Of a DNA stretch of 64,000 bases, positions 5,155 through 55,433 are shown in pieces. The notes under the pieces are model-generated. The model was not told the DNA's origin, made no database searches, and was given only the letters and a program-made list of their open reading frames with translations. The number at the start of each line of letters is the position of its first letter. Within the stretch, counting starts at the first letter, position 1. Origin of the DNA: Nostoc commune NIES-4072 (GTDB lineage: Bacteria; Cyanobacteriota; Cyanobacteriia; Cyanobacteriales; Nostocaceae); assembly GCF_003113895.1 (NCBI RefSeq), contig NZ_BDUD01000002.1:620001-684000 (forward strand), written 5' to 3'. The position numbers were made by a program, and so were the translations under genes.

Positions 5155-5594
5155 TCGTAGACTAAGCCCTGACTCTCATTTTTGTTAGATATTCTTAGTC
5201 TCGGCATTTTTTTGTGCCTTTTTTGCTGATTCTCAATCAATCGTAGCGATCGCCTTCGGTGGGTGCTTCGCGCCATCGCTTGGTCTTTCCCAGTTGAGCA
5301 AATTCATATATCACAAGCTTTTTGGCTTTTTCTAATCGTCGAACTCACGTTAAATTAGCTTTTTTTCTGAAATGCCTTCGAGATATGCTTTTCAGCCATT
5401 GCGTGGCGGCAAATTCTCTCTTCGCTACTTTTACCCCTAATTGATACTAAGCCCTAAAGACTTATTGCAGATATATTTGGAAATAATTGTCAAATAACTT
5501 GCTACCAATCTTTTTGAGATATCTCATCAAGATGATTTAACGTGTAATTACGTATATTAATTGCAAATAAAATTACTCCATACACAAATGTAAG

Positions 5595-5632
5595 TTTTAG
5601 CGATGGCTACGCCCGCCGCAGGCATCGCACCT
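5595..5632. repeat. Small dispersed repeat in a HIP1 context
   Basis: AGCGATGGCTACGCCCGCCG followed by CAGGCATCGCA belongs to the same small-repeat family that interrupts the CyRepA1 gene at 9833-9853 (GGCGTAGCCCGCCGCAGGC). Here it is intergenic. A related one (TTCGGTGGGTGCTTCGCGCC beside GCGATCGCC) is at about 5246-5279. Confidence 0.6.
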
Positions 5633-5643
5633 TTTTTGTCTGA

Positions 5644-5666
5644 CCTCACAAAATCGCGTTGCTCCC
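5644..5666. repeat. Partial end of the 149-bp MITE
   Basis: CCTCACAAAATCGCGTTGCTCCC is identical to the right end of the MITE at 15549-15697 and to the inverted left end of the one at 31291-31439. Only this terminal piece remains here. The KilA-N reading frame begins immediately to its right. Confidence 0.75.
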
Positions 5667-5696
5667 CATTTTTGGCACGAATCAGAAATTAACCAA

Positions 5697-6458
5697 ATGC
5701 CCCAAGATGGGGAAATAGGTAAATATGTTGTACCCAAGGGCTACGTGAATGCAAGTCAAATGTGCAAAGCTAACGGGAAATTCTTAGCTGATTACACGAA
5801 GCTCAAGTCTACAAAGCAGTATTTGCAAGCACTTTCTAACGATATGAAGATCCTCATATCGTTATTGGTGATAGATATCCAGGGATACGGAAGTGAGCAA
5901 AGCACTTGGATTCATCCAGAAATCGCCATTGATTTAGCTCGGTGGGTTTCTGTTGAATTCCGCATCTGGGCCAACAGAACTTTAATGAAAGTGATGCTCT
6001 CAACCCAAGTAGAGCAAGTATTACAGCAGGAACCACCACATACATTAGCTCCATCGCACGAAGCCGCACAGTTAGCAATGATGTTGGGGGAATTTGCTGG
6101 ACTAGACAAATCCCTCACTGCCCAGTTAGCAGTTAATGCCGCCACCAAAGTTAACCCCGCACTTAAGCCAGCAGCAGATGAACTAAAAACTGCGATCGCA
6201 GTTACAAATGTTTCTGAAGATGCATTTCTCAACCCAACACAAATCGGTGAGGTAGTGGGAATGTCTGCACGGGCTGTTAACCACTGCTTACTAAATTCGG
6301 GACTGCAATACAGAACTGATGATAAGAAAATTCCCTATCGTCCTACTGAATCAGGCAAGCAATGGGGTCGCATGGTTCCCGCAGTCGCCAAATCTTCAAA
6401 TCAAACTGTTTTTCAACTGCGGTGGTTGCCCGAAATAGTAAAAGTCATCTCTCAATAA
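5697..6458 (+). CDS. KilA-N domain protein, N-terminally trimmed
   Basis: A KilA-N DNA-binding domain fills roughly residues 10-105: GYVNASQMCKANGK, then TKQYLQALS, and the family's signature IHPEIAIDLARWVSVEFRIW. KilA-N proteins are phage and plasmid regulators of the antirepressor type. The C-terminal 100 residues (LNPTQIGEVVGMSARAVNHCLL) look like a second helix-turn-helix of the kind that ends phage antirepressors. The open frame runs upstream of the ATG through HFWHESEINQ, the usual family opening, into the MITE end with no start codon. The original start was probably lost to the MITE, and the internal ATG is the only one left. It heads the AlkB/CyRepA1 block, as a BRO-type gene does in the right-hand block. 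Confidence 0.75.
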   Translation: MPQDGEIGKYVVPKGYVNASQMCKANGKFLADYTKLKSTKQYLQALSNDMKILISLLVIDIQGYGSEQSTWIHPEIAIDLARWVSVEFRIWANRTLMKVMLSTQVEQVLQQEPPHTLAPSHEAAQLAMMLGEFAGLDKSLTAQLAVNAATKVNPALKPAADELKTAIAVTNVSEDAFLNPTQIGEVVGMSARAVNHCLLNSGLQYRTDDKKIPYRPTESGKQWGRMVPAVAKSSNQTVFQLRWLPEIVKVISQ

Positions 6459-6483
6459 TTCCCTACCTAACTCAACAACAATT

Positions 6484-6762
6484 ATGAACACTCTACGAAA
6501 AACCTTGGCAGAAAAATACGGTCTAGTTGCTGATATTATGCACGACGATTATTTTTTTGTTCAACTACCAGAAAACGAAGATCATTCACTCAAGTTTTTA
6601 GAGAGCAATTTACCAGAGTGTATTCGGGTTGAACTTTCAGAATGTTTCGCTGGTAGTGTGATTGCGGCTTGGGAAGTCCCTTTATTTTTACTCCCCCAAG
6701 TTTTACAGCAAGCCCATGATTTTGTCATTGAGTATTGGGAGCAAGTATCTCAAGAAACGTGA
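6484..6762 (+). CDS. Hypothetical 92-aa protein
   Basis: Starts with ATG 23 bases after the KilA-N stop and reads on the same strand, so it is likely cotranscribed. It is acidic, with a short helical start (LRKTLAEKYGLVADIM), a strand (YFFVQLP) and an amphipathic C-terminal helix (LLPQVLQQAHDFVIEYW). I do not recognise the family. The right-hand block has no counterpart between its BRO-type gene and AlkB, so it is particular to this copy. Confidence 0.55.
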   Translation: MNTLRKTLAEKYGLVADIMHDDYFFVQLPENEDHSLKFLESNLPECIRVELSECFAGSVIAAWEVPLFLLPQVLQQAHDFVIEYWEQVSQET

Positions 6763-6830
6763 AGTATTCTCCAGCAACTAAAACTAAGAACAACTGCTTC
6801 AGTACACATTTTTCATTGCAGAAAACTACC

Positions 6831-7430
6831 ATGCAACAACTCAATTTATTTGCTGAATCAACCCCAGTTTTACCCATCACTTATTATCCCGATTTCTTAA
6901 GCCAGGAACTTGCCAATGAACTCTACCAACACTGCTTAAAACTGGAGTGGCAGCAGAATCAAATCAGGATCGCGGGTAAAACAATGCCCGTCCCTCGCCT
7001 GGAATGCCTGTACGGTGACAAAGGCTGTGACTATCTTTACTCGAACAGCGTATTTTTGAAACCCCTGACTTGGACAGATAATCTGGCTAACTTGCGGGAC
7101 AGAATCACTACGTTAACTGGCTACAAGTTCCGTATCGTCATCGGTAATCAGTATCGCAGTGGACAGGACAGCATCGGCTGGCACTCTGACAACGAGGAAT
7201 CGATGGGATATCAGCCAGCGATCGCATCAGTAAGCCTGGGGTCATGTCGCAAGTTTCAAATCAAACCGAGAAATGGCAGACCAACGGATTTCTGGCTGGA
7301 ACACGGCAGCTTACTTGTGATGCACCCAGGCTGTCAATCAACTCATCTGCATCAGGTTCCAAAAACCAACAAAGTTGTTAGCACACGAATCAATCTCACA
7401 TTCAGACCGCACACAGGCGGGAACAGATAA
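6831..7430 (+). CDS. AlkB-like 2-oxoglutarate/Fe(II) dioxygenase (left copy)
   Basis: 199 aa, starting at the ATG that gives MQQLNLF, the same start as the right-hand paralogue. All the AlkB landmarks are present: the iron-binding H118-x-D120 (GWHSDNE), the distal His174 (HLHQVPKT), and the 2-oxoglutarate-binding Arg186 and Arg192 (TRINLTFR). LECLYGDKGCDYLYS fits the nucleotide-recognition lid of the ALKBH2/3 type. Such enzymes remove alkyl groups from bases in DNA or RNA by oxidation. It lies directly before CyRepA1, an arrangement repeated at 61111-61710, so it may protect or repair plasmid DNA; that role is inference. The paralogues are nearly identical in protein sequence. Confidence 0.85.
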   Translation: MQQLNLFAESTPVLPITYYPDFLSQELANELYQHCLKLEWQQNQIRIAGKTMPVPRLECLYGDKGCDYLYSNSVFLKPLTWTDNLANLRDRITTLTGYKFRIVIGNQYRSGQDSIGWHSDNEESMGYQPAIASVSLGSCRKFQIKPRNGRPTDFWLEHGSLLVMHPGCQSTHLHQVPKTNKVVSTRINLTFRPHTGGNR

Positions 7431-7440
7431 CGCTGTAGCT

Positions 7441-7513
7441 GGCTATTGAGGATTTCATAGCCAGCATCGCAAAAAGTTTGAACTGGCGGCACAGACCCAA
7501 GTGCCGCTTCCTG
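7441..7513 (+). promoter_or_regulatory. Two hairpins in the leader of the left CyRepA1
   Basis: GCTGGCTAT ... ATAGCCAGC (about 7438-7465) and GCGGCAC ... GTGCCGC (about 7483-7505) are perfect inverted repeats between AlkB and the CyRepA1 start. They could form a terminator or a leader structure controlling Rep synthesis. The right-hand copy has a different leader, so this is not a conserved element. Confidence 0.4.
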
Positions 7514-8140
7514 AACCATGCGTCAAAAAATAGAGGAAATATGCGTATAATCGAGTCTGATTCTCAAGTAAAACATTTACAAGAATGGCTCAACAGTGGA
7601 GTTGACGAAGAAATCACTGCCCTGAATGTACGTTCGCTCTACGGCACAACACCCCACGAATATCTCCTCTACAGTCCCAAAATCTCCCGTCGCAACGATG
7701 GACGATTACGCGATCGCGATTTGAAAAAATACCAACACATCGAACTAGGCGGCTGGTGGTGCAGTGGTGTTGACCCCCTCAACGACTATGTACTGATGAT
7801 GTGGGGCTGCTTTAAACCCGACCATCCCCGAAGAGATCGCCAGAAAATTCACAAATTCATCAAGTATGAACACCCATATAGAGAAGAGACACGCGCTTTC
7901 TTCCTCTTAGTGCCAAATCGCATTTGGGTGAAAGTCTCTAATCGTAGCGGCATCCCCATCACCGAAGAAGATTTACAGCATCCTGGTGGTTTCTGGCACT
8001 GGGTTTGGCGGCACAACGTACCAGTGACAATCGTGGAAGGTGTCAAAAAAGCGGGGGCGTTATTGACTGCGGGTTATGCAGCGATCGCTATCCCCGGTGT
8101 CAACGCTGGATACCGCACCCCCCAAGATGAGTACGGTACT

Positions 8141-8167
8141 GCCACTTGTGTTGAGCGTAGTCGAAAC
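8141..8167. repeat. 24-nt in-frame dispersed repeat in CyRepA1
   Basis: Compared with the intact paralogue, this copy carries a net 24 extra bases containing GTTGAGCGTAGTCGAAAC. They add codons for a TCVERSRN-like stretch without breaking the frame. The inverse of the same motif (GTTTCGACTACGCTCAAC) occurs at about 31472-31489, confirming it as a dispersed repeat. Confidence 0.75.
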
Positions 8168-9832
8168 ATTGGTAAGCCATCCCTCATCCCCGACTTGAAA
8201 CATTTTGCAACACAGGGGAGACAGGTTAACATTTGCTTTGACCAGGACAATAAACCCGAAACTGTACAGCGAGTCAGAACCGCTATCAGTCGCATGGGAC
8301 GGCTGCTGGTAAATGAAGGTTGTTCGCTGCGAGTGATTGATTTACCGTTAGGGGCTTCTAAAGGGGTTGATGATTTTATCGTTGCTCATGGTCAGTCGGC
8401 ATTTGACGCACTCTACAACACCGCCGTTGCACTGGAGTTATGGGAAATCAAGCTGTTTACTCTGCTGACTTATCCGCCTGCGATCGCTCTCAACCAAAGA
8501 TTCTTGGATCACTTGCTTGTACCAGAGGGTGAAAAACTGATTATCCTCAAGGCTCCCAAAGGTAGTGGTAAAACCCAATGGCTGTCTACTGAGGTGGCCA
8601 AAGCCCATGACCTTGGACGCAGGGTGTTAATCATCACCCATCGGATTCAACTTGGTGAGGCATTATGCGATCGCTTCGGTGTTAACTATGTGACTGAAGT
8701 CCGCACTTCGGGAACAGGTACATTATTAGGATACGGGGTGTGTGTAGACTCCCTGCATCAAGAGAGCCAGGCGCGATTCAATCCCAATGACTGGTCAAAT
8801 GATGTCATTATTATTGATGAATGTGACCAAGTTTTCTGGCATTTACTTAACTCTGGTACGGAGGTTGCTAAACGTCGGGTATCGGTTCTAAAAAACCTGA
8901 AACAACTAGTACAAAATGTTCTCGGTAGCGAACACGGCAAGATTTACCTATCAAGTGCTGATGTTTCCGATACTGATGTCAAATACGTTCTTTCTCTTGC
9001 TGGAGAATATCGGGTTAATCCATTCGTTATCGTCAACAACTATCGCCACGTTGCCGGAAACTGTTACAACTATTCTGGCAGTAACCCGAAGAATCTCATC
9101 GCCGCACTGGACAAAGCGATAGCCAAAGGAGGGCATCATCTATTGTGTTGCTCTGCTCAAAAGGCAAAGTCCAAATGGGGAACCCAGGCACTTGAGGAAC
9201 GTTTTCGTCGCAAATTCCCACATCTGCGAATCCTCAGAATTGACAGCGAATCTGTTGCAGACCCCTCTCATGCTGCTATGGGGTGTATTTCTCACCTGAA
9301 CGAAATTCTGACCGAGTATGATTTAGTTATCGCCTCACCCAGTCTTGAAACTGGGGTATCCATCGACATTGAAGGACACTTTGATGGTGTATGGGGGATT
9401 TTTCAGGGTGTGCAGCCGGTTAACTCCGTGCGGCAGATGTTGGCAAGGGTTAGGGAAACTGTTGACCGTCACATTTGGGTTAGAGAGTGGGGGATGTCGG
9501 TTGTGGGCAATGGTTCCACAACGATAGGAGGATTGCTCAGAAGTCAACACGTCGCAACACAAGCGAACATTGCGCTGTTGTCGGCGGCGGATAATGCGGA
9601 TTTGAGCTATATTGATCAGAATTTTCAGCCCGAATCCCTACAGACTTGGGGTAAGCGTGGTTCTGTTATTAACGTCGAGATGCGGCGCTATCGGGAATCG
9701 GTGCTTGCGGGTTTGGTCGAAGATGGTTACACCATTATCGATGCCTCGGATGCATCGGATGATGAGACTGGCGCAGTAATCGAGTCGGTTAAGGCGGCAT
9801 CTGTTGAATTGTATGCTGCGGAGTGTGAAGCG

Positions 9833-9853
9833 TAGGCGTAGCCCGCCGCAGGC
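9833..9853. repeat. 21-nt dispersed repeat with in-frame TAG, in a HIP1 site
   Basis: The flanks GAAGCG and ATCGCT rejoin to GAAGCGATCGCT, a HIP1 site, when the 21 bases are removed. The reading frame then matches the intact paralogue (CEAIADAP...). The insert supplies two in-frame TAG codons and truncates the protein. Confidence 0.85.
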
Positions 9854-10497
9854 ATCGCTAATTCTGCAACCATTTCTGATGCCGAACTCAAGAAGCTCCT
9901 TGACACAAGGGCGAAAACTAAAACCGAACGATACCAGCAGCGCAAGGCGGAATTGTCCCGCCGCTACGAAATTGACGTAACCCCTGATTTAGTCGAGAAA
10001 GATGACGACGGCTGGTATCCTCAACTGCGGATGCACTACTATTTGACGCTGGGGCGAGAGTTTCTGACCACCCGTGATGCGAAACGGGCTAAGGCACAAG
10101 CCGAAGCTGGGAATAATGCTATCTGGAAGCCGGATTTTAACAAGGGGCAGCTATTGACTGCCGTCTTATTATTGGAGAGACTGAACTTGTTGCAGTTGCT
10201 TACCTCTGGGGAACGGTTACGCTCTTCTGACGAGGCGATGCAGGAGTTGAAGAAGGCGGCGATGAAGAATCGGTATCTCATCAAAACTTGTTTAAACGTC
10301 ACCATTTCGGAAAAATTTACTCCCATAACGATCGCACAGAAGTTACTTGCCAAAATTGATTTGAAGTTGAATTATGTTGGTCGATTGGGCAAGCGTGAAA
10401 ATCGGGAGTGCGTTTACCAATTCGTTGCCCCTGATGATGAGCGTGATTCGATTTTCGGGCAGTGGCTCAATCGGGATGAAGTGTTTCTTAGTGAGTT

Positions 10498-10630
10498 GGT
10501 GTCAGTCAGTAATAATATAAGTACTACCACACCAGTAACTGACACAACATCACTTTCCATATCCCACAATACTGAATTGGTGTCAGGCACTAATAATATA
10601 GTCTTTGCAACACCACTCAGTGACACAGCA
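10498..10630. repeat. Iteron-like repeats inside CyRepA1
   Basis: GGTGTCAGTCAGTAATAATA at 10498 recurs as GGTGTCAGGCACTAATAATA at 10579, 81 bases apart. Each is followed by a near-inverse CAGTAACTGACAC or CTCAGTGACAC. The repeats encode a low-complexity Ser/Asn/Thr linker. The intact paralogue carries the same kind of unit at about 57842-57992. They may be Rep binding sites or merely a protein repeat. Confidence 0.5.
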
Positions 10631-10950
10631 CCACATACCCCAGAAAATATTGCGATTCTTAGATGGAAGGGGCTAAAGCTGAAATTGCAGCAAGGTTTGG
10701 ACAGCGCTGGTCAGTTCTACCAACAGCTAGTCTCCACAATCGGCTCGGCTATTGGCGTTGCTGATGGGGAGCCTTACTGGAACGGATATCTGGGGCAGTG
10801 GCAAGTTTGGGTAAACTTTGGAAGCGGGTGTAAGTCGGTGGTGTGCGATTGGTTGGCGGCGGTGTAGGTTAAAGTAGTTCACTGTTATCCATCACAGAGC
10901 AATCGCAAAACTTTTCAGTCTACTGACAGTAGTCTTACCCCAATCGGGCT

Positions 10951-46816: not shown

Positions 46817-46934
46817 AATCAATTGGGTGCGGCTATGGTTGAAAATCCAATATCTTGAACAATACCTTTGCGATCAAGTAGAACAAGGCAATACATGAGT
46901 TAAATATCAGTAAAGACTACTCAGGAAATAAATA

Positions 46935-48661
46935 GGGGTTGCTGAAAAAAAAGAAAAGGTTACAGTCTCTAGATTATCAGACCAAAGAAAGATATTCAGG
47001 TGCAAGAGTTGAGGGTAAAATAACCCAAAATCCTTGCATCACCGTGACTAGCAGGACTAAAGTGTGTCATTAGTAACCATGTACCGAAAGCAGGAGCAAA
47101 CTACAATCCCACCAGAAAACTTTGAACTTCCGTTTGAAGGAAAATTATCAGAAGATAATCGTTGGGTAATTATGGCTGATTTAATACCGTGGGCGGAATT
47201 TGAAGAGGAATATTCTTCATTTTTTTCGGCAGAGATGGGAGCGCCAGCAAAATCATTTCGGGTGGCATTAGGCGCATTAATAATCAAAGAAAAACTAGGA
47301 ATAAGCGACAGAGAAACAGTAGAACAAATTAAAGAAAACCCTTATCTACAGTACTTCATAGGAATATCATCTTATATTAATGAAGCTCCATTTGATCCAT
47401 CTATGCTAGTCCATTTTCGTGAAAGAATTAGTGCAGACTTAGTAAACAAAGTAAATCAAGAAACTGTTAAAAGGATGCTAGAGACAACATCTTCGACTTT
47501 AGCAACTGAATCAACTGAATCAACTGAATCAACTCAAAAAAAAATAGAAGAATTAGAAAAAGAAGATAACACGCCGAAAAATCGGGGAAAATTAATATTA
47601 GATGCGACTTGTGCGCCAGCAGACATCAGCTATCCAACAGATTTCGAGCTATTAAATCAAGCAAGAAAACAGACAGAACGAATAATAGACCTTCTTTATG
47701 AACAGATAAAAGGTACATTAGAGAAAAAACCAAGGACTTATCGGGAAATAGCGAGAAAAAACTACTTAGAAGTCGCTAAAAAACGTCGTGTATCCCAAAA
47801 AGATAGGAAAAAAGCGATTAAAAAGCAGCTTCAATATATCAAAAGAAACTTATCTCATATTGACCAGCTAATCAGATCGGGAGCAACTCTAGAAAAACTA
47901 AGTACTAAACAATATAAAATGTTGCTTGTAGTTGTAGAAGTTTATCGTCAACAACTATGGTTGTATGAAAATAAAAAACAGAGTATTGATGACCGAATCG
48001 TTAGTTTAAGCCAACCACATATCCGCCCAATTGTCCGTGGAAAAGCTGGGAAAGCCGTGGAATTTGGGGCAAAATTATCAGCTAGTTATTTTGATGGGTA
48101 TGTATTTTTAGACCATATTAGTTGGGATAATTTTAATGAATCAGGAGACTTAAAATCACAAGTAGAAGCATATAAAAACTATACTGGCTATTATCCAGAA
48201 TCGGTTCATGTAGATAAAATTTATCGCACAAGAGAGAATAGAGCTTGGTGCAAAGGAAGAGGTATTATCATGAGTGGTCCTCCTTTGGGAAGACCACCAG
48301 CCAATGTTAGTAAAGAAAAAAAGAAACAAGATTTAGAATCTGAGAGAATTCGTAATTGTATTGAAGGAAAATTTGGGCAAGCTAAAAGAAGGTTTAGCCT
48401 CAATCGAGTGATGGCGAAACTTTCCCACACTTCTGAAACTGCAATTGCTATTACTTTTCTAGTGATGAATCTTTCTACTCACCTGTCGCGGGTGTTTTAT
48501 GCTTTTTTATGTCTATTTTTGAAAACTGCACCTTTTTTGCAGTTCCGTATAACTGAAAATTATGATTTTATTAGTTATAAACAAGAAAAGCTTATCTTTG
48601 ATTTTGCTTGAATAACTAGTCAACCCTTAAGATTGCTTTTTCATACTTTTTCAGCAACCCC
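46935..48661. mobile_element. Insertion sequence of the IS5-like/DUF772 kind
   Basis: GGGGTTGCTGAAAAA (46935-46949) and TTTTTCAGCAACCCC (48647-48661) are perfect 15-bp inverted ends. TA lies on both sides (46933-46934 and 48662-48663), the expected short duplication. The element is 1727 bp and carries one intact transposase. It is the only complete IS of this type in the window. Confidence 0.85.
47079..48611 (+). CDS. IS5/IS1182-like DDE transposase, 510 aa
   Basis: ATG giving MYRKQEQTTIPPENFELPF, although a GTG five codons upstream is in frame. N-terminal DUF772 (residues about 10-140: ALIIKEKLGISDRETVEQI, then YLQYFIGI, SMLVHFRER) binds the ends. LILDATCAPADISYPTDFEL carries the first catalytic Asp, YPESVHVDKIYRTREN the second, and RNCIEGKFGQAKRRFSL the Glu. 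The gap between D1 and D2 is long, with a basic coiled insert and a repeated TESTEST stretch (about residue 145). The element looks able to move. Confidence 0.88.
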   Translation: MYRKQEQTTIPPENFELPFEGKLSEDNRWVIMADLIPWAEFEEEYSSFFSAEMGAPAKSFRVALGALIIKEKLGISDRETVEQIKENPYLQYFIGISSYINEAPFDPSMLVHFRERISADLVNKVNQETVKRMLETTSSTLATESTESTESTQKKIEELEKEDNTPKNRGKLILDATCAPADISYPTDFELLNQARKQTERIIDLLYEQIKGTLEKKPRTYREIARKNYLEVAKKRRVSQKDRKKAIKKQLQYIKRNLSHIDQLIRSGATLEKLSTKQYKMLLVVVEVYRQQLWLYENKKQSIDDRIVSLSQPHIRPIVRGKAGKAVEFGAKLSASYFDGYVFLDHISWDNFNESGDLKSQVEAYKNYTGYYPESVHVDKIYRTRENRAWCKGRGIIMSGPPLGRPPANVSKEKKKQDLESERIRNCIEGKFGQAKRRFSLNRVMAKLSHTSETAIAITFLVMNLSTHLSRVFYAFLCLFLKTAPFLQFRITENYDFISYKQEKLIFDFA

Positions 48662-48766
48662 TAAATAGCTTTAGTTTCACTATTTGATAGATTTAAACTT
48701 AACATCCAGTGCTTGTTGAAAAAAATAGCGACTAAAAATGGCTAAGTATACTTAAGGAACCTTGTA

Positions 48767-49048
48767 ATGATTAAGTTTTTAGTACGTTTACTGTTTGCTA
48801 CATTATCTTTAACTGTATTTTTGAACTTGTTCACTTCTATTGCCCTTGCACAAAAAACTTATGAACCAACAACTGAATCCCTATCAAAGCATGAAGTTCC
48901 AGACTGGTTCAAGGATGCAAAACTTGGAATTTTCATTCTTAGATACAGGTTATTTTATAACTCTGGGGTTGATTCGATGAACTCTTTCTGGAAGCAATGT
49001 ATCCAGAATTTCCAAATTCAGCTAACTAAAAAAAAAGGGAGTTATTGA
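48767..49048 (+). pseudogene. N-terminal remnant of a GH29 alpha-L-fucosidase
   Basis: Signal peptide (FLVRLLFATLSLTVFLNLF, cleavage after ALA), then the GH29 opening YEPTTESLSKHEVPDWFKDA and KLGIFI. The usual HWG(V/L)YSVPA and all catalytic residues are replaced by unrelated codons (LRYRLFYNSGVD). The gene broke after about 60 residues. It is adjacent to the IS at 46935-48661 and runs into an IS4 remnant, in the most degraded stretch of the window. Confidence 0.75.
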
Positions 49049-49330
49049 GGTTGCAAGCGTTGGAATTTTGGTAACGCACGACGAATAGCTCGTAATGTAC
49101 CAGTGAAACTCAGGCGTAATGGTGCAACACAATTACTATTTGCAGCTTGGAAAATTAATGATCTGACAGCCCAATGTGCGAGTAACCAGCCATAATTTCC
49201 TGCACAGTTTCCCGTGGTTGTTGAGAACGAACAGGAGTTTTTCTGGCTAAAGATGTACCTTGAGTTCCACAACTCAATTTACAAGCGCTGATCAAGAAAG
49301 AGGTGGAATGATGCCTAAAACACCCTCTAG
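49042..49330 (-). pseudogene. IS4-family transposase C-terminal remnant
   Basis: Minus-strand frames read TPVRSQQPRETVQEI and, after a shift, YGWLLAHWAVRSLIFQAA, then APLRLSFTGTLRAIRRALPKFQ. That is the C-terminal end of an IS4-type transposase, from the Glu region on. No element ends are visible. The frame is broken and the catalytic core is gone. Confidence 0.75.
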
Positions 49331-49333
49331 ACG

Positions 49334-49487
49334 CCACCTCTGCCGCATCTACCGATTCAACTTCAGCAGCTAGCTCTGCAAATAAGAATATTTCTCAGTA
49401 AAAAGACCCATGTTCAGCAACGATTACGGTTACGGGTGTTGAAGTTCCAGAGTTGACAGAAAAACAGCGCGATTCGCTTGAATTTTT
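49334..49487 (+). pseudogene. Fragment of the ParB-like plasmid gene
   Basis: TSAASTDSTS, then SSANKNISQ followed by TAA, then SATITVTGVEVPELTE. This matches residues about 12-65 of the ParB-like protein at 20650-21606, with near-identical DNA in its first 50 bases. Only the N-terminal tail region survives. It marks plasmid-gene sequence now placed far from the XRE operon. Confidence 0.8.
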
Positions 49488-49494
49488 CACCCCG

Positions 49495-49540
49495 TAAGAG
49501 CGATGCCTTGTGATCAGAATTACACCTAACCTATTGACAA
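49495..49540. repeat. 46-bp direct repeat, left of the terpene cassette
   Basis: Contains GCGATGCCTTGTGATCAGAA then TTACACC, matching 51923-51968 in 42 of 46 positions. It ends five bases before the terpene cyclase ATG. The core TGTGATCAGAATTACA resembles CRP-type TGTGA-N6-TCACA and NtcA-type GT-N10-AC sites. It may be a recombination scar, a regulatory site, or both. Confidence 0.7.
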
Positions 49541-49544
49541 ATCT

Positions 49545-51137
49545 ATGGAAACTTTTAAAAAATTCTCTAATCCTATAGTTAGCTCTTCTGTTTTGCAACC
49601 TTTAATACTGGGTGAGCCAGAACTACGTGGTCAAGTTATAGACTGCCAGAAGAAACTTACACGCTATCTAAAAGACCAAGTGAAAACAGACGGATCTGTT
49701 AGAGATGTTTGCAAGAGCCGTGTGCTTGAATCCTCATTGATGCTCCACTTGCTTACTATCCAAGAAATATATCCAAATTGTCAGTATCAACTCACTCACT
49801 ACTTAACTACTCAACTTGATAAAGAGCATAATAACAAGTTCCACAAGGCTCTAATTATTGGAGCATTGCGTAAAAGTATGCCTGAAGATGCACAAGTTGG
49901 TGAAGATTATATGACAGGCTTTCAGCATTTTACGGCAAGCCGTAAGCGCGTGCTGTTCAGTGCAATCCTAGCAGAACTAGGGGTAATGCCGTATGACAAC
50001 CAGTATCAGATAGAACACTTCTTTTATCAAGGTTATCAAAGTTGGGTTGCAGGTGAAATATGCGCTCTCAAAGTTCTATACGCTTTTGGTTTAAACTACC
50101 GAAAGTGGATAAACCTTGATGACGTAGAATTTCTACTGGCAACGCAGAACAATAACTCGATTTGGGAAAAACACGTTTTAGCCAATATTATCATCTTATT
50201 GGCACTTCAAAAGTTTCCAGAACACCATCATGTAGTGTTGAAGGGAATTAACAATTTGCTAAGTTGTCAAAACTCAGATGGCGGTTTCCCTTTTATTGCT
50301 AGTTTTGAGATTTTCTGTACAGCAACTGCTGGAGTAGCCTTAACAGATAGTGGAGCTGACATTGAGACTCTATTACAAATGGCTGAGTACATAGTGAGAC
50401 AACAGCAATCAGATGGCGGATGGTCATATGCAGAGGGTACAAGTCAGAGTGACGTAGATGATACTTCTTTCTGTGTAGAGTTTTTACAGGCAGTTGAGGT
50501 TGACAAATACAAAGAATACATTTCAAAAGGTGAGGCATACCTTCTCGCTATTCAGAATGAAGATGGTGGATTTCCTACCTTTGTGCGTGGTAATTCCTCT
50601 GAAATTACCATGACAGCAGCAGCTCTTAACGCGTTGGCCCCTCGCTGTACTGAGTATACAAACGTCTTCGAGTTAGGACTGCGCTACATCACTGACCAAC
50701 AAAAGTTCGACGGTTCTTTTGAAAGGAGCTGGAGTCTGAGCGAAGCACAGGCGATTTTTCGTTCAGTGTTAGCAATGCGTACCTGTAAAGTTGTTCGGTC
50801 AGCGCAGCTTTTAGAAAGTATTTATACAGCAGAAGCGAAAGCATTAGACTACCTGCGTAAATCTCAAAACAGCGATGGCGGTTGGGGTCATAAATTAGGT
50901 GACACAAGCGATGTTATCAGTACCTCATATACCCTAATTGCCCTAAGCAGCCTTGGTGATGCCGAAACATTAAGGCGAGGTACACATTACCTGATGCTAC
51001 AGCAGGATGAAGAAGGGAAATTCGTCTCTATACCAGATCAAGTAGCTCCCCGACCCATACCTTATGATGTGCCTATTCTCACTAGCATCTTCGCGTTACT
51101 CGCTCTTAAATACACTGCTGCCGTTATCAGGGAATAA
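49545..51137 (+). CDS. Class II terpene cyclase-like protein, 530 aa
   Basis: A squalene/diterpene cyclase-type alpha-barrel protein. The proton-donor motif is DVDD (residues 303-306, SQSDVDDTSF), as in class II cyclases that protonate a double bond of GGPP, FPP or squalene. At least four QW repeats follow the usual pattern: QNSDGGF (about 242), QQSDGGWSY (about 287), QNEDGGF (about 343) and QNSDGGWGH (about 450). I see no DDxxD class I motif. The length fits a two-domain class II cyclase that would leave the diphosphate on. A HAD phosphatase starts right after the stop. No ribosome site is obvious. Bacterial cyclases of this kind are few in cyanobacteria. Confidence 0.8.
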   Translation: METFKKFSNPIVSSSVLQPLILGEPELRGQVIDCQKKLTRYLKDQVKTDGSVRDVCKSRVLESSLMLHLLTIQEIYPNCQYQLTHYLTTQLDKEHNNKFHKALIIGALRKSMPEDAQVGEDYMTGFQHFTASRKRVLFSAILAELGVMPYDNQYQIEHFFYQGYQSWVAGEICALKVLYAFGLNYRKWINLDDVEFLLATQNNNSIWEKHVLANIIILLALQKFPEHHHVVLKGINNLLSCQNSDGGFPFIASFEIFCTATAGVALTDSGADIETLLQMAEYIVRQQQSDGGWSYAEGTSQSDVDDTSFCVEFLQAVEVDKYKEYISKGEAYLLAIQNEDGGFPTFVRGNSSEITMTAAALNALAPRCTEYTNVFELGLRYITDQQKFDGSFERSWSLSEAQAIFRSVLAMRTCKVVRSAQLLESIYTAEAKALDYLRKSQNSDGGWGHKLGDTSDVISTSYTLIALSSLGDAETLRRGTHYLMLQQDEEGKFVSIPDQVAPRPIPYDVPILTSIFALLALKYTAAVIRE

Positions 51138-51138
51138 T

Positions 51139-51858
51139 ATGCAAAGGAACGATATGAAAGTTGCTGCCTTAGATATTGACGGAACTCTCTACCCCGGTGC
51201 TTTAGGGCTTCAGTTACTACAAGCATTGACAGCAAATGGTATTAGTGACAAATCAAAGATCGAGGATATTTTTAAAGTAGTTGAAAAATATCGTCTTAAT
51301 GAAATTGACTTCCAGATCATGGCAACTACTGCTTATAATCTCTTTGCAGAGGCGATTGCAGGGATATCACAAACTGTAATGCAGCGTATTGCTAGGCAAG
51401 TATGGCAGCAAGAACGAACCAAACTATTCCCTTTCGTTCCGAAACTCATCGACATTCTCAACAGCCAGGGATATTCCCTTGTATTAATTTCAGGTAGCCC
51501 GGATGAAATCGTGTGTTGCCTAGCTGAGGAGTTTGGGATTTCAAAATACCAAGGCTCAATTTTCGCCACTCACCAAGGTAAGTACACTGGAAAAGTAAAT
51601 CTCTTGTCAGGATCTCTTGGCAAGAAGTATTCTATTTTTCTACAGATGGTTAAGGATTGGAGTGTAAATCTGGAGGAATCCCTTGCCATAGGTGATTCAA
51701 TAACTGATACGGCGCTCCTTGAGATCGTTGGAAAACCTGTAGTGTTTGAACCTCATCCATCATTAATGTTGATTGCACAAGAGAAAGATTGGCTTGTTAC
51801 CAACCGGAATAATATTGTCAAACATATCATGGAGTTAGGAAACCCATTTTTGACTTAA
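51139..51858 (+). CDS. HAD-family (SerB-like) phosphatase, 239 aa
   Basis: The ATG follows the cyclase stop by one base. It is an HAD-IB-type phosphatase: motif I LDIDGTLYPG (Asp12 nucleophile, Asp14 acid), motif II LISGSPDEIV, motif III Lys in SGSLGKKYSI, motif IV AIGDSITDTALL. Some cyclase-phosphatase proteins fuse such a domain to a class II terpene cyclase to remove the diphosphate and release an alcohol. Here the two functions are separate, adjacent genes. Alternatively it is an unrelated phosphoserine-phosphatase-like enzyme, but the spacing suggests cotranslation. Helical cap segments lie at residues about 30-95. Confidence 0.85.
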   Translation: MQRNDMKVAALDIDGTLYPGALGLQLLQALTANGISDKSKIEDIFKVVEKYRLNEIDFQIMATTAYNLFAEAIAGISQTVMQRIARQVWQQERTKLFPFVPKLIDILNSQGYSLVLISGSPDEIVCCLAEEFGISKYQGSIFATHQGKYTGKVNLLSGSLGKKYSIFLQMVKDWSVNLEESLAIGDSITDTALLEIVGKPVVFEPHPSLMLIAQEKDWLVTNRNNIVKHIMELGNPFLT

Positions 51859-51922
51859 ACAATAAATCGTGGGTTTTGATAAATCCAACGATGTGATTAA
51901 TGGTCAAGGGGGTAACGTCCCA

Positions 51923-51968
51923 TAAGGGCGATGCCTTGTGATCAGAATTACACCCAGCCTATTGATAA
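51923..51968. repeat. 46-bp direct repeat, right of the terpene cassette
   Basis: The second copy of the repeat at 49495-49540, in the same orientation and 64 bases after the HAD stop. Together they bracket exactly the cyclase and phosphatase genes. The spacer 51859-52133 holds no other gene. Confidence 0.7.
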
Positions 51969-52133
51969 TAAACCTCGTCTACGTTGAAAACCGTAGTTTT
52001 TCCTCATTTTCTTCAAGATAATTTTTAAATCTTACCCTAGCTCGGATTATGCCACTTTGTTTCCAACCTGATTGCTGATTAGGCAAGTCCTCTTGTCAAT
52101 AGCCTTTGAGACACGCTAACCCTATGTTTGCAC

Positions 52134-52781
52134 TCAAGCGCGGTAAGTCCTGTAAATTTTCTTTGGCTTCCTTGAGAAGAATGCAATTTTGTTGCTGCTG
52201 AGTGCTATACCCAACATGCCTTCAAGGAGGGTTGCCAAAACAGTTGTCGGTTCAGGAACCGCAGATGCTTTAATCTGATTCGGACTCGAATCGAGTAATT
52301 GACTATAGTCTGCTGTAATATTTTGGTAAAGATAAGAGGTCGCTCCCGGAGAGATGAAGATACGACCCGGAGCCTCAACATTGCTGAGAAAAACATCACC
52401 TATGCCACTACCTGTGCCAACATCAATTGCCCCAAATAAATTGCCTGTAGTCGTGTCAAAGTTAAACTCGAAAAACTGATTGCTTGATACACCATTAACA
52501 ACTTCGTTTTTAGTTGCAATCAACTCCTGTGATGGATTGAAAAAAGAAACATTGAGTGACTGCAAGGCTTTTGTGGCTCCCGCACCACTTTCGGAAATTA
52601 TGGCTGGGGTAGTGGTTTGATCGTAACTAAACTCAAAAGAAGCCGAATAACCAGCATCACCCTTCCAGTTAAATGTTAAATCAGTAGCTTGAGCCAGATT
52701 AGTAGAAGCAATGATAGAAGTCGCACAGAGTGCTAAACTAAGCGCTATCTGCGCTGTCTTGAGGGTGAAAAAGCTTTTCAT
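52134..52781 (-). CDS. PEP-CTERM secreted protein, 215 aa
   Basis: Signal peptide at 1-32 (TAQIALSLALCATSIIASTN, cleavage after AQA). The mature domain is beta-rich and Asn/Ser-rich (LTFNWKGDAGYSASFEFSY), resembling the family of secreted proteins with PEP-CTERM tails. At residue about 175 comes the VPEPTTVLATLLEGMLGIAL segment and then a basic end (SRKPKKIYRTYR), the exosortase sorting signal. Exported and then cleaved and possibly anchored. It is the only exosortase substrate here; the enzyme must be encoded elsewhere. Confidence 0.85.
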   Translation of the reverse strand: MKSFFTLKTAQIALSLALCATSIIASTNLAQATDLTFNWKGDAGYSASFEFSYDQTTTPAIISESGAGATKALQSLNVSFFNPSQELIATKNEVVNGVSSNQFFEFNFDTTTGNLFGAIDVGTGSGIGDVFLSNVEAPGRIFISPGATSYLYQNITADYSQLLDSSPNQIKASAVPEPTTVLATLLEGMLGIALSSNKIAFFSRKPKKIYRTYRA

Positions 52782-53311: not shown

Positions 53312-53978
53312 TTAAGTTTCACAAAGAATGATATTTAAGTCACTACGGACATTCTCCAATGGCTTTGACCACAAGGAATTCCATTCAATACCAAAAAGGG
53401 GCAGCGACTGTTTTCCCATTAGCCATCCCTTAGTTATTGCATCCATATATTTTGTCGAAACCTCAATATCGTAAATAGCGGCTTTGACAAGATTTTTAGC
53501 CAATAATGCTAACCAGAAACGCGAAAAGTGTAGTTGGGCAACATAAAAAGCTTCTATCTAATTGAATTTCTCCAAGAATGTTTGTATCGCATCCAGTAAT
53601 AATATGCCAAATGTCGTGTGTTTCTGTGATATGCACTCCGAGAAATTGGTAATCATTCTCTACTTGCCCAGAGTGTAAAGGTTGCAAATTGTTTTTGAGC
53701 AGATGTTCAGCATAGCTATATCCAAGTGTATTGAGAGGTAAGCGATAAAGTTTTTGGAGATCAATATCACCTAATCTTGAGCGTCTTTGAAATGCTTGTT
53801 TTCCTTGTGGGGTGCTATGAAGAAGTTCTATTATTTTTTGTAAGCTATGCGAATCAGCAACAGTATTTGCGAGGTTGCCAATACTCTCAAAGTCACCATC
53901 GGGCGCTCTGACTATATTTATAATGCTCTCAAGTGCGCTATCGTGCCATTCTGACTCAAGTTGGGCTACAGAATCCAT
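53312..53978 (-). pseudogene. Coq4-like protein gene, frameshifted
   Basis: The first frame (53496-53978) covers the Coq4 core: LLHSTPQGKQAFQRRSRLGD, LYRLPLNTLGYSYAEHLL and the metal-binding HDIWHIITG. A one-base shift near 53500 moves the rest into a second frame (53312-53503): AKNLVKAAIYDIEVSTKYMD, then WLMGKQSLPLFGIEWNSLW. Both parts match what Coq4-like proteins of cyanobacteria look like. Coq4 acts in ubiquinone synthesis in other organisms, but cyanobacteria lack ubiquinone, so the cyanobacterial members have another, unknown role. A programmed shift is possible but unproven. Confidence 0.75.
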
Positions 53979-54155: not shown

Positions 54156-55433
54156 ACCTGAGTTCGATATAACAAAAACGCTTAAAAATGAGTCGTAGTC
54201 AATGTTCTCTCAATTAGTAATTCTTATTGACAATTAATAGTCAAAATAAGCTAATCCAAAAACTGCTATTTGGGAAAATTTAAGTTAAATAATTTACTTC
54301 AATAAAAAGAGTAATTAAACTAACAAAGCAGGTAAATTTTCGGCTTCATTTTTATCTAGCTTTAAAGAGGGCTTTTTCTGTTGAAAAGTATAAGCAATTA
54401 AACCTGCAAGGAGATTAACCATAAAATTCTTAACACTTCTATGGCGAGAATGAACAATTTGAGAGATATTTTTTAACTGGTCATTAACAGTTTCAATTAA
54501 CGACCTTTTACGTAACATCAGTTTTTCCCATAACTCAAGCAACTTATTATTCATATTTTTCTTAAAGGGAGTAATTAGCTTGATATTATTTGACCAAAGT
54601 TCTGACCATAATTTTTTAGAAATATACCCTTTGTCTCCAAAAAGATTAACCCATAAATTTTGAGTTAAGGTCGGAACTGGTACTCGGTCATCTGTATTTC
54701 CAGGAGTTACTTGAAAAGCTAGTAATTCCCCTTGATCATTAATGATTAAATGGAGCTTAAAACCAAAATACCAAGCGACAGAACTCTTTCCCCAACCTGA
54801 TAAGCCTCTAAAAACCTTATTTCTTTTCGCCCTCTTTGGATGACAAATTGGAATAGATGTACTGTCAATAAAACTGATGCCGCTAATATTTCCTTTGCGA
54901 GAATTTAAGTATAACATTAAAGGCATTAGAGCCTGATGTATTAATTCAACAAATCTGTTATAACTTACCAAGCACGGAAATTCTTTTTGAAAATGTTTTA
55001 GCAGATTCTCTTGATAATAACTCTTGAAATTTCGATAATTAGAATGATGAAAATAAATTATTATTGTCATGATTTCACTTAAACAAAGTTGACTCTTTCT
55101 TTCTCTTTTTTGCTTTTGAGAGGCAATAACTTTAGACTTAAAATTCTCTTCAAAAATTACACAAAAATCATCTATTTCACAAAACAACTTTTCTAATTCC
55201 ATTATCTATTCCTCTCTCTGAAATAATTACTTTATTCTCAGAGCTTTGGGACGATATTGATGATTATTGGTAATATTACTTAGTGTTTTGTTACAAAATT
55301 TATTTATTGAAGTTGTTAACTAGCAATTATTTATCAATAGCTTAAAATTATTGACACTCACTCAAACATAAAAAAATCCTCTAACTCTTATGAGCAGCTA
55401 TTTATAGCTTATTTTCTTACATCGAACTCAGGT
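54156..55433. mobile_element. IS982-family insertion sequence, complete
   Basis: Ends ACCTGAGTTCGATATAA (54156-54172) and the inverse TTACATCGAACTCAGGT (55417-55433), one mismatch. TTGCTC lies on both sides (54150-54155 and 55434-55439), a 6-bp duplication. It contains one intact transposase on the minus strand. It probably inserted recently, in a non-coding spacer. Confidence 0.88.
54315..55202 (-). CDS. IS982-family transposase, 295 aa
   Basis: A full-length IS982 transposase. The N-terminal HTH-like region (LCLSEIMTIIIYFHHSNYRNF) is followed by the DDE core: SFIDSTSIPICHPKRAKRN with D1, LFGDKGYISKKLWSEL with D2 and RSLIETVNDQLKNISQIVH with E. The usual GLSGWGKSSVAWYFGFKLHL is present. No frameshift or stop is seen. 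It is a clear reference for the dead relative at 4664-5154. Confidence 0.9.
   Translation of the reverse strand: MELEKLFCEIDDFCVIFEENFKSKVIASQKQKRERKSQLCLSEIMTIIIYFHHSNYRNFKSYYQENLLKHFQKEFPCLVSYNRFVELIHQALMPLMLYLNSRKGNISGISFIDSTSIPICHPKRAKRNKVFRGLSGWGKSSVAWYFGFKLHLIINDQGELLAFQVTPGNTDDRVPVPTLTQNLWVNLFGDKGYISKKLWSELWSNNIKLITPFKKNMNNKLLELWEKLMLRKRSLIETVNDQLKNISQIVHSRHRSVKNFMVNLLAGLIAYTFQQKKPSLKLDKNEAENLPALLV

Follow-up and report, generated by a model that had tools for sequence, protein, structure and literature searches.

Several of the systems closest to the gene pair described here concern drimane-type terpenes. The first is the enzyme with PDB code 7xq4, which we take to be SsDMS, the drimenyl-diphosphate synthase of Streptomyces showdoensis, a β-γ didomain protein; the PDB record itself gives a domain name only, the entry names for 7xq4, 7xr7 and 8zg1 being 'SQHop_cyclase_C domain-containing protein' and similar. 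Fused bacterial drimenol synthases of the AsDMS type combine an N-terminal HAD domain with a class II β domain. In the astellolide system of Aspergillus oryzae, to which AstC belongs, separate HAD phosphatases, AstI and AstK, dephosphorylate drimanyl diphosphate.

The pair of Nostoc commune NIES-4072 genes analysed here, a class II terpene cyclase followed by an HAD-IB phosphatase, shares features with each of these. The cyclase is like SsDMS (7xq4/7xr7/8zg1) in its DVDD motif, in its length and in its 38% identity over 489 residues, but in Nostoc an HAD-IB gene accompanies that of the cyclase. The two activities expected of the pair are those of the AsDMS type, but in Nostoc they reside in separate ORFs and the cyclase is a full-length member of the 7xq4 family; no chain named AsDMS was present among the PDB matches of our searches. 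The separate HAD gene is reminiscent of AstC/AstI/AstK, a system which differs in being fungal and part of a larger cluster.

The cyclase and phosphatase genes

The genes lie within a 64,000-nucleotide stretch (the window), itself part of the 806,781-base contig C2; the 8.2-Mb genome comprises 11 contigs, of which C1 is of 7.15 Mb. The cyclase gene (49545–51137, plus strand) encodes 530 amino acids. A motif scan revealed a single DxDD motif, DVDD at residues 303–306 (50451–50462, plus strand), four QW-type motifs and no class I motif of either the DDxx(D/E) or NSE type, in agreement with the first-pass annotation, which had described just such a protein. The DVDD motif of class II cyclases has a role in protonation, and its first and third residues here, D303 and D305, are invariant across a 12-sequence cyclase alignment. 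Pfam matches are to SQHop_cyclase_C (1e-19) and SQHop_cyclase_N (1.3e-15). The nearest solved relatives found with phmmer in the PDB are 7xq4 (1.3e-92), 8zg1 (2.5e-92), 7xr7, 8zg0, 7xqz and 8zg5, the E-values extending to 4.4e-91, and the identity with 7xq4 is 38.4% over 489 residues. This homology extends over the full length and far exceeds that to the remaining class II cyclases of the PDB. A profile built from 12 relatives scored 7xq4 at 533 bits, squalene-hopene cyclase 1gsz at 105 bits, ent-copalyl-diphosphate synthase 5bp8 at 24.6 bits and MstE at 23.7 bits, so that by sequence the cyclase groups with 7xq4 and not with the 5bp8 or MstE type. Judged in this way, it belongs to the 7xq4 family, apart from those diterpene and meroterpenoid cyclases. 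An AlphaFold model of the cyclase made from three sequences (mean pLDDT 36.9) was too poor to show an α-barrel, and Foldseek returned 319 matches to it up to an E-value of 10, none of them at or below 0.001.

The cyclase stop codon, TAA at 51135–51137, is followed one base later by an ATG at 51139 opening the HAD frame, which ends at 51858 (plus strand). The encoded protein matches Pfam PF12710 (5.8e-14) and the NCBIfam HAD-IB model TIGR01490 (102.5 bits, cut-off 98.3), with scores far below cut-off for the NCBIfam models of SerB and histidinol-phosphatase. The motifs expected of such a phosphatase are present: DIDGT (motif I), Ser118 (motif II) and GDSITD (motif IV), with Lys162/163 assigned by eye. 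The profile searches thus confirm both the class II cyclase and the HAD-IB identities first proposed. HAD-IB enzymes act mostly on monophosphate substrates. As for the cyclase, the AlphaFold model (five sequences, mean pLDDT 39.9) was too poor to use.

Comparison of the Nostoc copies of the pair (see below) bears on where HAD translation starts. A second ATG at 51154 is preceded by AAGGAA, part of a possible ribosome-binding site AAAGGAA (51143–51149, plus strand), and AAGGAA is conserved in all five copies (the window, L005, L006, L007 and L008). In contrast, the AGGG before the ATG at 51139 is missing in two of the five (L006 and L008). This pattern suggests that the start may be 51154, which we consider the more likely of the two on sequence grounds. 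The placing of the HAD gene just one base after the cyclase in the first-pass annotation therefore holds for the ATG at 51139, but the gap becomes 16 bases if translation starts at 51154.

Setting, distribution and movement of the pair

Contig C2 is probably a plasmid of its Nostoc host, since window positions 5667–10867 align to Nostoc plasmid stretches annotated with the CyRepA1 plasmid replication protein. The gene pair is framed by 50-nt direct repeats, both on the plus strand, of which the left (49491–49540) stops 4 nt short of the cyclase ATG and the right (51919–51968) is 90% identical to it. The span of 49495–51968 originally assigned to the cassette coincides almost exactly with the stretch that they delimit; the repeats themselves go unmentioned in the first-pass annotation. 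The 27-nt core of the repeat, with up to three mismatches allowed, is found twice in the window, compared to a mean of 0.00 in 100 shuffles, and these are the only two copies in the whole 8.2-Mb genome. When up to two mismatches are allowed, the core occurs in three of 53 genomes of the genus, all of them carriers of the cassette. Both repeats contain TGTGA-N6-TTACA, a CRP-like sequence one base off the consensus, and both lack an NtcA-type box (GTA-N8-TAC). An Rfam search of the window for an RNA element at the repeats gave no match. A scan of 48600–52200 yielded eight promoter-like sites against 8.0 expected and five terminator-like sites against 2.8 expected, and points neither way.

Between the repeats there is no ORF of at least 80 amino acids other than the cyclase and the HAD and, among ORFs of that size, no recombinase or transposase. 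We also considered whether the pair belongs to a bigger terpene cluster and rejected this reading: a Pfam search of 25 other window proteins found no prenyl synthase, P450 or class I synthase among them. To the left lies a stretch with GMC oxidoreductase, SDR and hydrolase genes, partly common to plasmid p057_G of Nostoc C057. That plasmid matches much of the left neighbourhood as far as the L-lactate dehydrogenase gene and then continues with TehA, where the window has an insertion sequence and the cassette. Since p057_G carries part of the stretch, with TehA in place of the insertion sequence and the cassette, we do not count the GMC oxidoreductase, SDR and hydrolase genes in the unit.

Several other features of the neighbourhood may be recorded. 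An IS5-family element (46933–48663; transposase 47064–48611) with perfect 17-nt inverted repeats adjoins the L-lactate dehydrogenase gene. At 48767–49048 is the remnant of an α-L-fucosidase gene (Pfam 4.9e-8), retaining the first 57 or so residues and, further on, another short piece. Nostoc FACHB-973 has a copy of this fucosidase of 490 amino acids (L005, 5905–7377). To the right of the cassette, positions 52134–52781 encode a conserved, secreted-looking protein of 215 amino acids with a PEP-CTERM-like end (by eye) and no Pfam or NCBIfam match. The same protein is also right of the cassette in one of the two JL33 copies (L008, 1322–1969). Further along are a gene for a Coq4-like protein (53496–53978, Pfam 1.4e-20), here on a likely cyanobacterial plasmid, and an IS982-family element (54156–55433; transposase 54315–55202) with 22-nt inverted repeats that are 91% complementary. 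Ubiquinone synthesis is not known from cyanobacteria.

Within the genus, the cyclase is found in four of 53 genomes (E 1e-20), namely the window's own, G398, G413 and G417, and the HAD, not being general in the genus, is found in the same four (E 1e-8). The other carriers are Nostoc strains FACHB-973 (L005), NMS7 (L006) and JL33, which has two copies (L007 and L008), each on a contig whose end cuts into the cyclase. If the genes were independent, this co-occurrence would have a chance probability of 3.4e-6 but, since the pair evidently moves together, the figure measures linkage and not repeated selection. The cyclase-HAD junction is identical in layout, with the genes adjacent, in all five copies found. 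The two-gene unit of class II cyclase and HAD-IB on a likely cyanobacterial plasmid, first noted from the window alone, has thus been met again in three related genomes, and the refuting condition named with it, a lack of adjacency elsewhere, is not borne out.

The surroundings of the copies vary. FACHB-973 has its left surroundings in common with the window. In NMS7, the pair follows a stretch matching ParA plasmid genes, the flanks differ from those of the window, and similarity to the window is confined to the pair and the left repeat, which is present as one diverged copy; a right repeat was not found there. In JL33, similarity to the window stops inside the right repeat of L007, beyond which the flank differs, and in L008 the right flank is that of the window plus an insertion. 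The pair behaves like a mobile gene cassette in that the same unit occurs in different surroundings (the flanks of L006 and the right flank of L007).

On one alternative explanation, the two genes are decaying or silent cargo on a mobile segment, yielding no current product in the host. The insertion sequences and broken fucosidase gene nearby are in keeping with such a fate, as is the rarity of the pair in the genus (4/53). However, each of the complete cyclase copies (three) and of the HAD copies (five) has an open frame, and dN/dS values are well under 1: 0.17–0.32 for the cyclase (three Nostoc pairs) and 0–0.23 for the HAD (ten Nostoc pairs). Both genes are under purifying selection, and we regard the silent-cargo explanation as very improbable.

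At higher ranks, the cyclase occurs in two of 388 genomes of the order (E 1e-30) and in one of a sample of 386 from the phylum, the latter being the window's own. At E 1e-8, three of the 388 have the HAD. Besides the genome of the window itself (3e-157), these are two with weak matches (7e-15 and 1e-10), neither of which is among the genomes matching the cyclase. No viral relatives were found. A further cyanobacterium, G198, of another family, carries a class II cyclase, an FPP-synthase-like gene and a P450 gene in one run (L013, 577–4589), and is alone among 27 genomes of its family in having the cyclase. Its cyclase groups with those of Nostoc (support 98/96) in a tree that is unrooted, with long branches and with the placement of G198 flagged as unsure. 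The neighbouring prenyl synthase scores 268.6 bits as an FPP synthase, just missing the cut-off of 275, versus 211 bits as the GGPP synthase CrtE. No HAD was found among ORFs of at least 90 amino acids on the 5.1-kb G198 contig, nor is G198 among the order-level HAD matches.

Partners of the cyclase in Streptomyces plasmids

A search of 72,556 plasmid records with the cyclase matched 39, none of them cyanobacterial, of which 16 had cyclase coverage of at least 80%. Eleven of these 16 loci were examined, all from Streptomyces (H3, H5, H8, H9 and H11 were left out). Four have an adjacent HAD of another subfamily, one has a fusion, one has a Nudix gene and five have no HAD or Nudix partner in view, counts which rest on part of the ORFs, the Streptomyces plasmid gene tables being incomplete or empty.

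In the four with an HAD, from strains NBC_01650 (L016), NBC_01362 (L017), NBC_00012 (L022) and NBC_01592 (L023), the HAD gene and the end of the cyclase gene share a 4-nt overlap. These HADs are nearly identical to one another, and the only one searched, that of L016, is an HAD-IA/HAD_2 protein; as close relatives, the four loci count as one event. They resemble the Nostoc pair in having a same-family class II cyclase with an HAD immediately downstream, on plasmids. L016 differs in that its HAD is HAD-IA/HAD_2 rather than HAD-IB and its cyclase has DTDT. In Streptomyces clavuligerus (L019), a Nudix gene (5472–5969) directly precedes a class II cyclase 51% identical to 7xq4, and upstream of both lies a P450 gene. 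Of the five loci without such a partner in view, two have other genes downstream, a class I terpene synthase in the first and a P450 in the second; neither an HAD nor a Nudix gene was seen next to the cyclase in L020, L024 or L025, the neighbour in L025 falling outside the Pfam search. With these five loci and G198 lacking either type of partner, a dedicated phosphohydrolase appears common in the cyclase family, and not obligatory, as far as the partly annotated stretches go. Such pairs, together with the fused drimenol synthases described above, also make the novelty originally claimed for the two-gene unit too strong, four of the 11 loci having a same-family cyclase with a separate HAD of another subfamily.

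The fusion, protein P0001 from a plasmid of Streptomyces sp. NBC_01445 (L021), is of 741 amino acids with an N-terminal HAD and a C-terminal cyclase, each homologous to its Nostoc counterpart (phmmer 7e-33 from the HAD and 1e-86 from the cyclase). As a query against the plasmids it matched 22 records, only its own with coverage of at least 80%. Fusion of homologous modules provides independent evidence for HAD and cyclase acting in one pathway, and is our best pointer to function. Its cyclase has DTDT where that of Nostoc has DVDD and the Streptomyces HAD homologues have GN, not GD, in motif IV, so that P0001 may not carry out exactly the same chemistry.

The distribution of HAD homologues bears on a different explanation, in which the HAD acts first or elsewhere, converting a linear prenyl phosphate to farnesol or geranylgeraniol, or hydrolysing an unrelated phosphomonoester, with the cyclase diphosphate passing to another enzyme. 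The three best plasmid matches of the Nostoc HAD, all from Streptomyces, are L032, L033 and the fusion; no homologue was found beside the cyclases of L015–L020 and L022–L025 (E 0.01, ORFs of at least 120 amino acids). In a tree of 11 sequences, the Nostoc HAD falls with those of the fusion, L033 and L032, apart from the six others (local support 0.978). The L033 homologue, on a plasmid of Streptomyces NBC_00690 (5393–6729), overlaps idi and has no cyclase among its annotated neighbours, and the three neighbouring ORFs searched in L032 match an MFS transporter, an acetoacetate-decarboxylase and a methyltransferase, with no terpene genes, both contexts being suggestive of HAD action elsewhere. 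The existence of the fusion, the co-occurrence and adjacency of the cyclase and HAD genes, and the lack of a third gene of at least 80 amino acids between the repeats all argue the other way, making this explanation improbable for the Nostoc pair.

Proposed reactions, substrate and significance

We consider it probable that the pair is a two-enzyme terpene-alcohol unit on a small mobile cassette, in which the cyclase converts FPP to a drimane-type diphosphate and the HAD yields the alcohol. The family assignment, motifs, selection, co-occurrence, adjacency, fusion of homologues and varied surroundings, all computed, favour such cyclisation followed by dephosphorylation, a plausible interpretation that is strengthened with respect to the initial proposal. 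From these, we infer FPP as the substrate, the action of the HAD on the cyclised product, and the nature of that product. The middle Asp of DVDD would protonate a linear prenyl diphosphate at its terminal alkene, the diphosphate being retained through cyclisation so that the product is bicyclic. With FPP as the substrate, this product would most likely be drimenyl diphosphate or a relative of the drimane type. Dephosphorylation, in one step or two, would then fall to the HAD with its nucleophilic Asp (D12, in DIDGT) and Mg2+, setting free a drimenol-type alcohol. Several points weigh against this reading: the failure to find an HAD on the G198 contig (ORFs of at least 90 amino acids) and an HAD or Nudix partner in five of the 11 Streptomyces loci, the absence of cyanobacteria from the 39 plasmid matches, the usual action of HAD-IB enzymes on monophosphates, and the altered motifs of the fusion.

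The same two steps might instead start from GGPP, giving a labdane, copalyl or halimane-type diphosphate from which the HAD would free a diterpene alcohol. The cassette itself contains no FPP synthase, or indeed any prenyl synthase. In the host genome a pair of polyprenyl synthase genes and a single SHC-type gene are located on C1, away from the cassette, and one of the two synthases has, by eye, a Met-type pattern before the first Asp-rich motif, as is typical of GGPP synthases. At 38% identity, moreover, chain-length preference can differ. Against these points may be set the very weak likeness of the cyclase to ent-copalyl-diphosphate synthase 5bp8 (24.6 versus 533 bits), the FPP-synthase-like gene beside the G198 cyclase and the SHC-type gene, which implies a flux of FPP to squalene. 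Thus membership of the 7xq4 family and the G198 neighbour would favour FPP, and the GGPP-type look of one host synthase would favour GGPP; neither is decisive, and we hold the GGPP alternative to be unlikely.

The novelty of the Nostoc pair is moderate, the kind of pathway being known and occurring here in a split form, with an HAD-IB phosphatase, on a mobile, probably plasmid-borne cassette. More tentatively, and with greater doubt than confidence, we suggest that cyclases of the 7xq4 family have repeatedly and independently recruited a phosphohydrolase (HAD-IB, split or fused, HAD-IA or Nudix), and that the Nostoc pair may be a minimal, self-contained two-gene terpenol module spreading between cyanobacterial plasmids on its own repeats and making a new drimane- or labdane-type alcohol.

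If the preferred reading is correct, a drimenol-type pathway would be placed in cyanobacteria, in a two-gene, separately tunable form of an activity best known from fused enzymes. The split, fused and partner-swapped relatives would then offer material for testing direct hand-over of the cyclised diphosphate, and terpene pathways that escape searches aimed at large clusters might be sought in short repeat-flanked plasmid cassettes.
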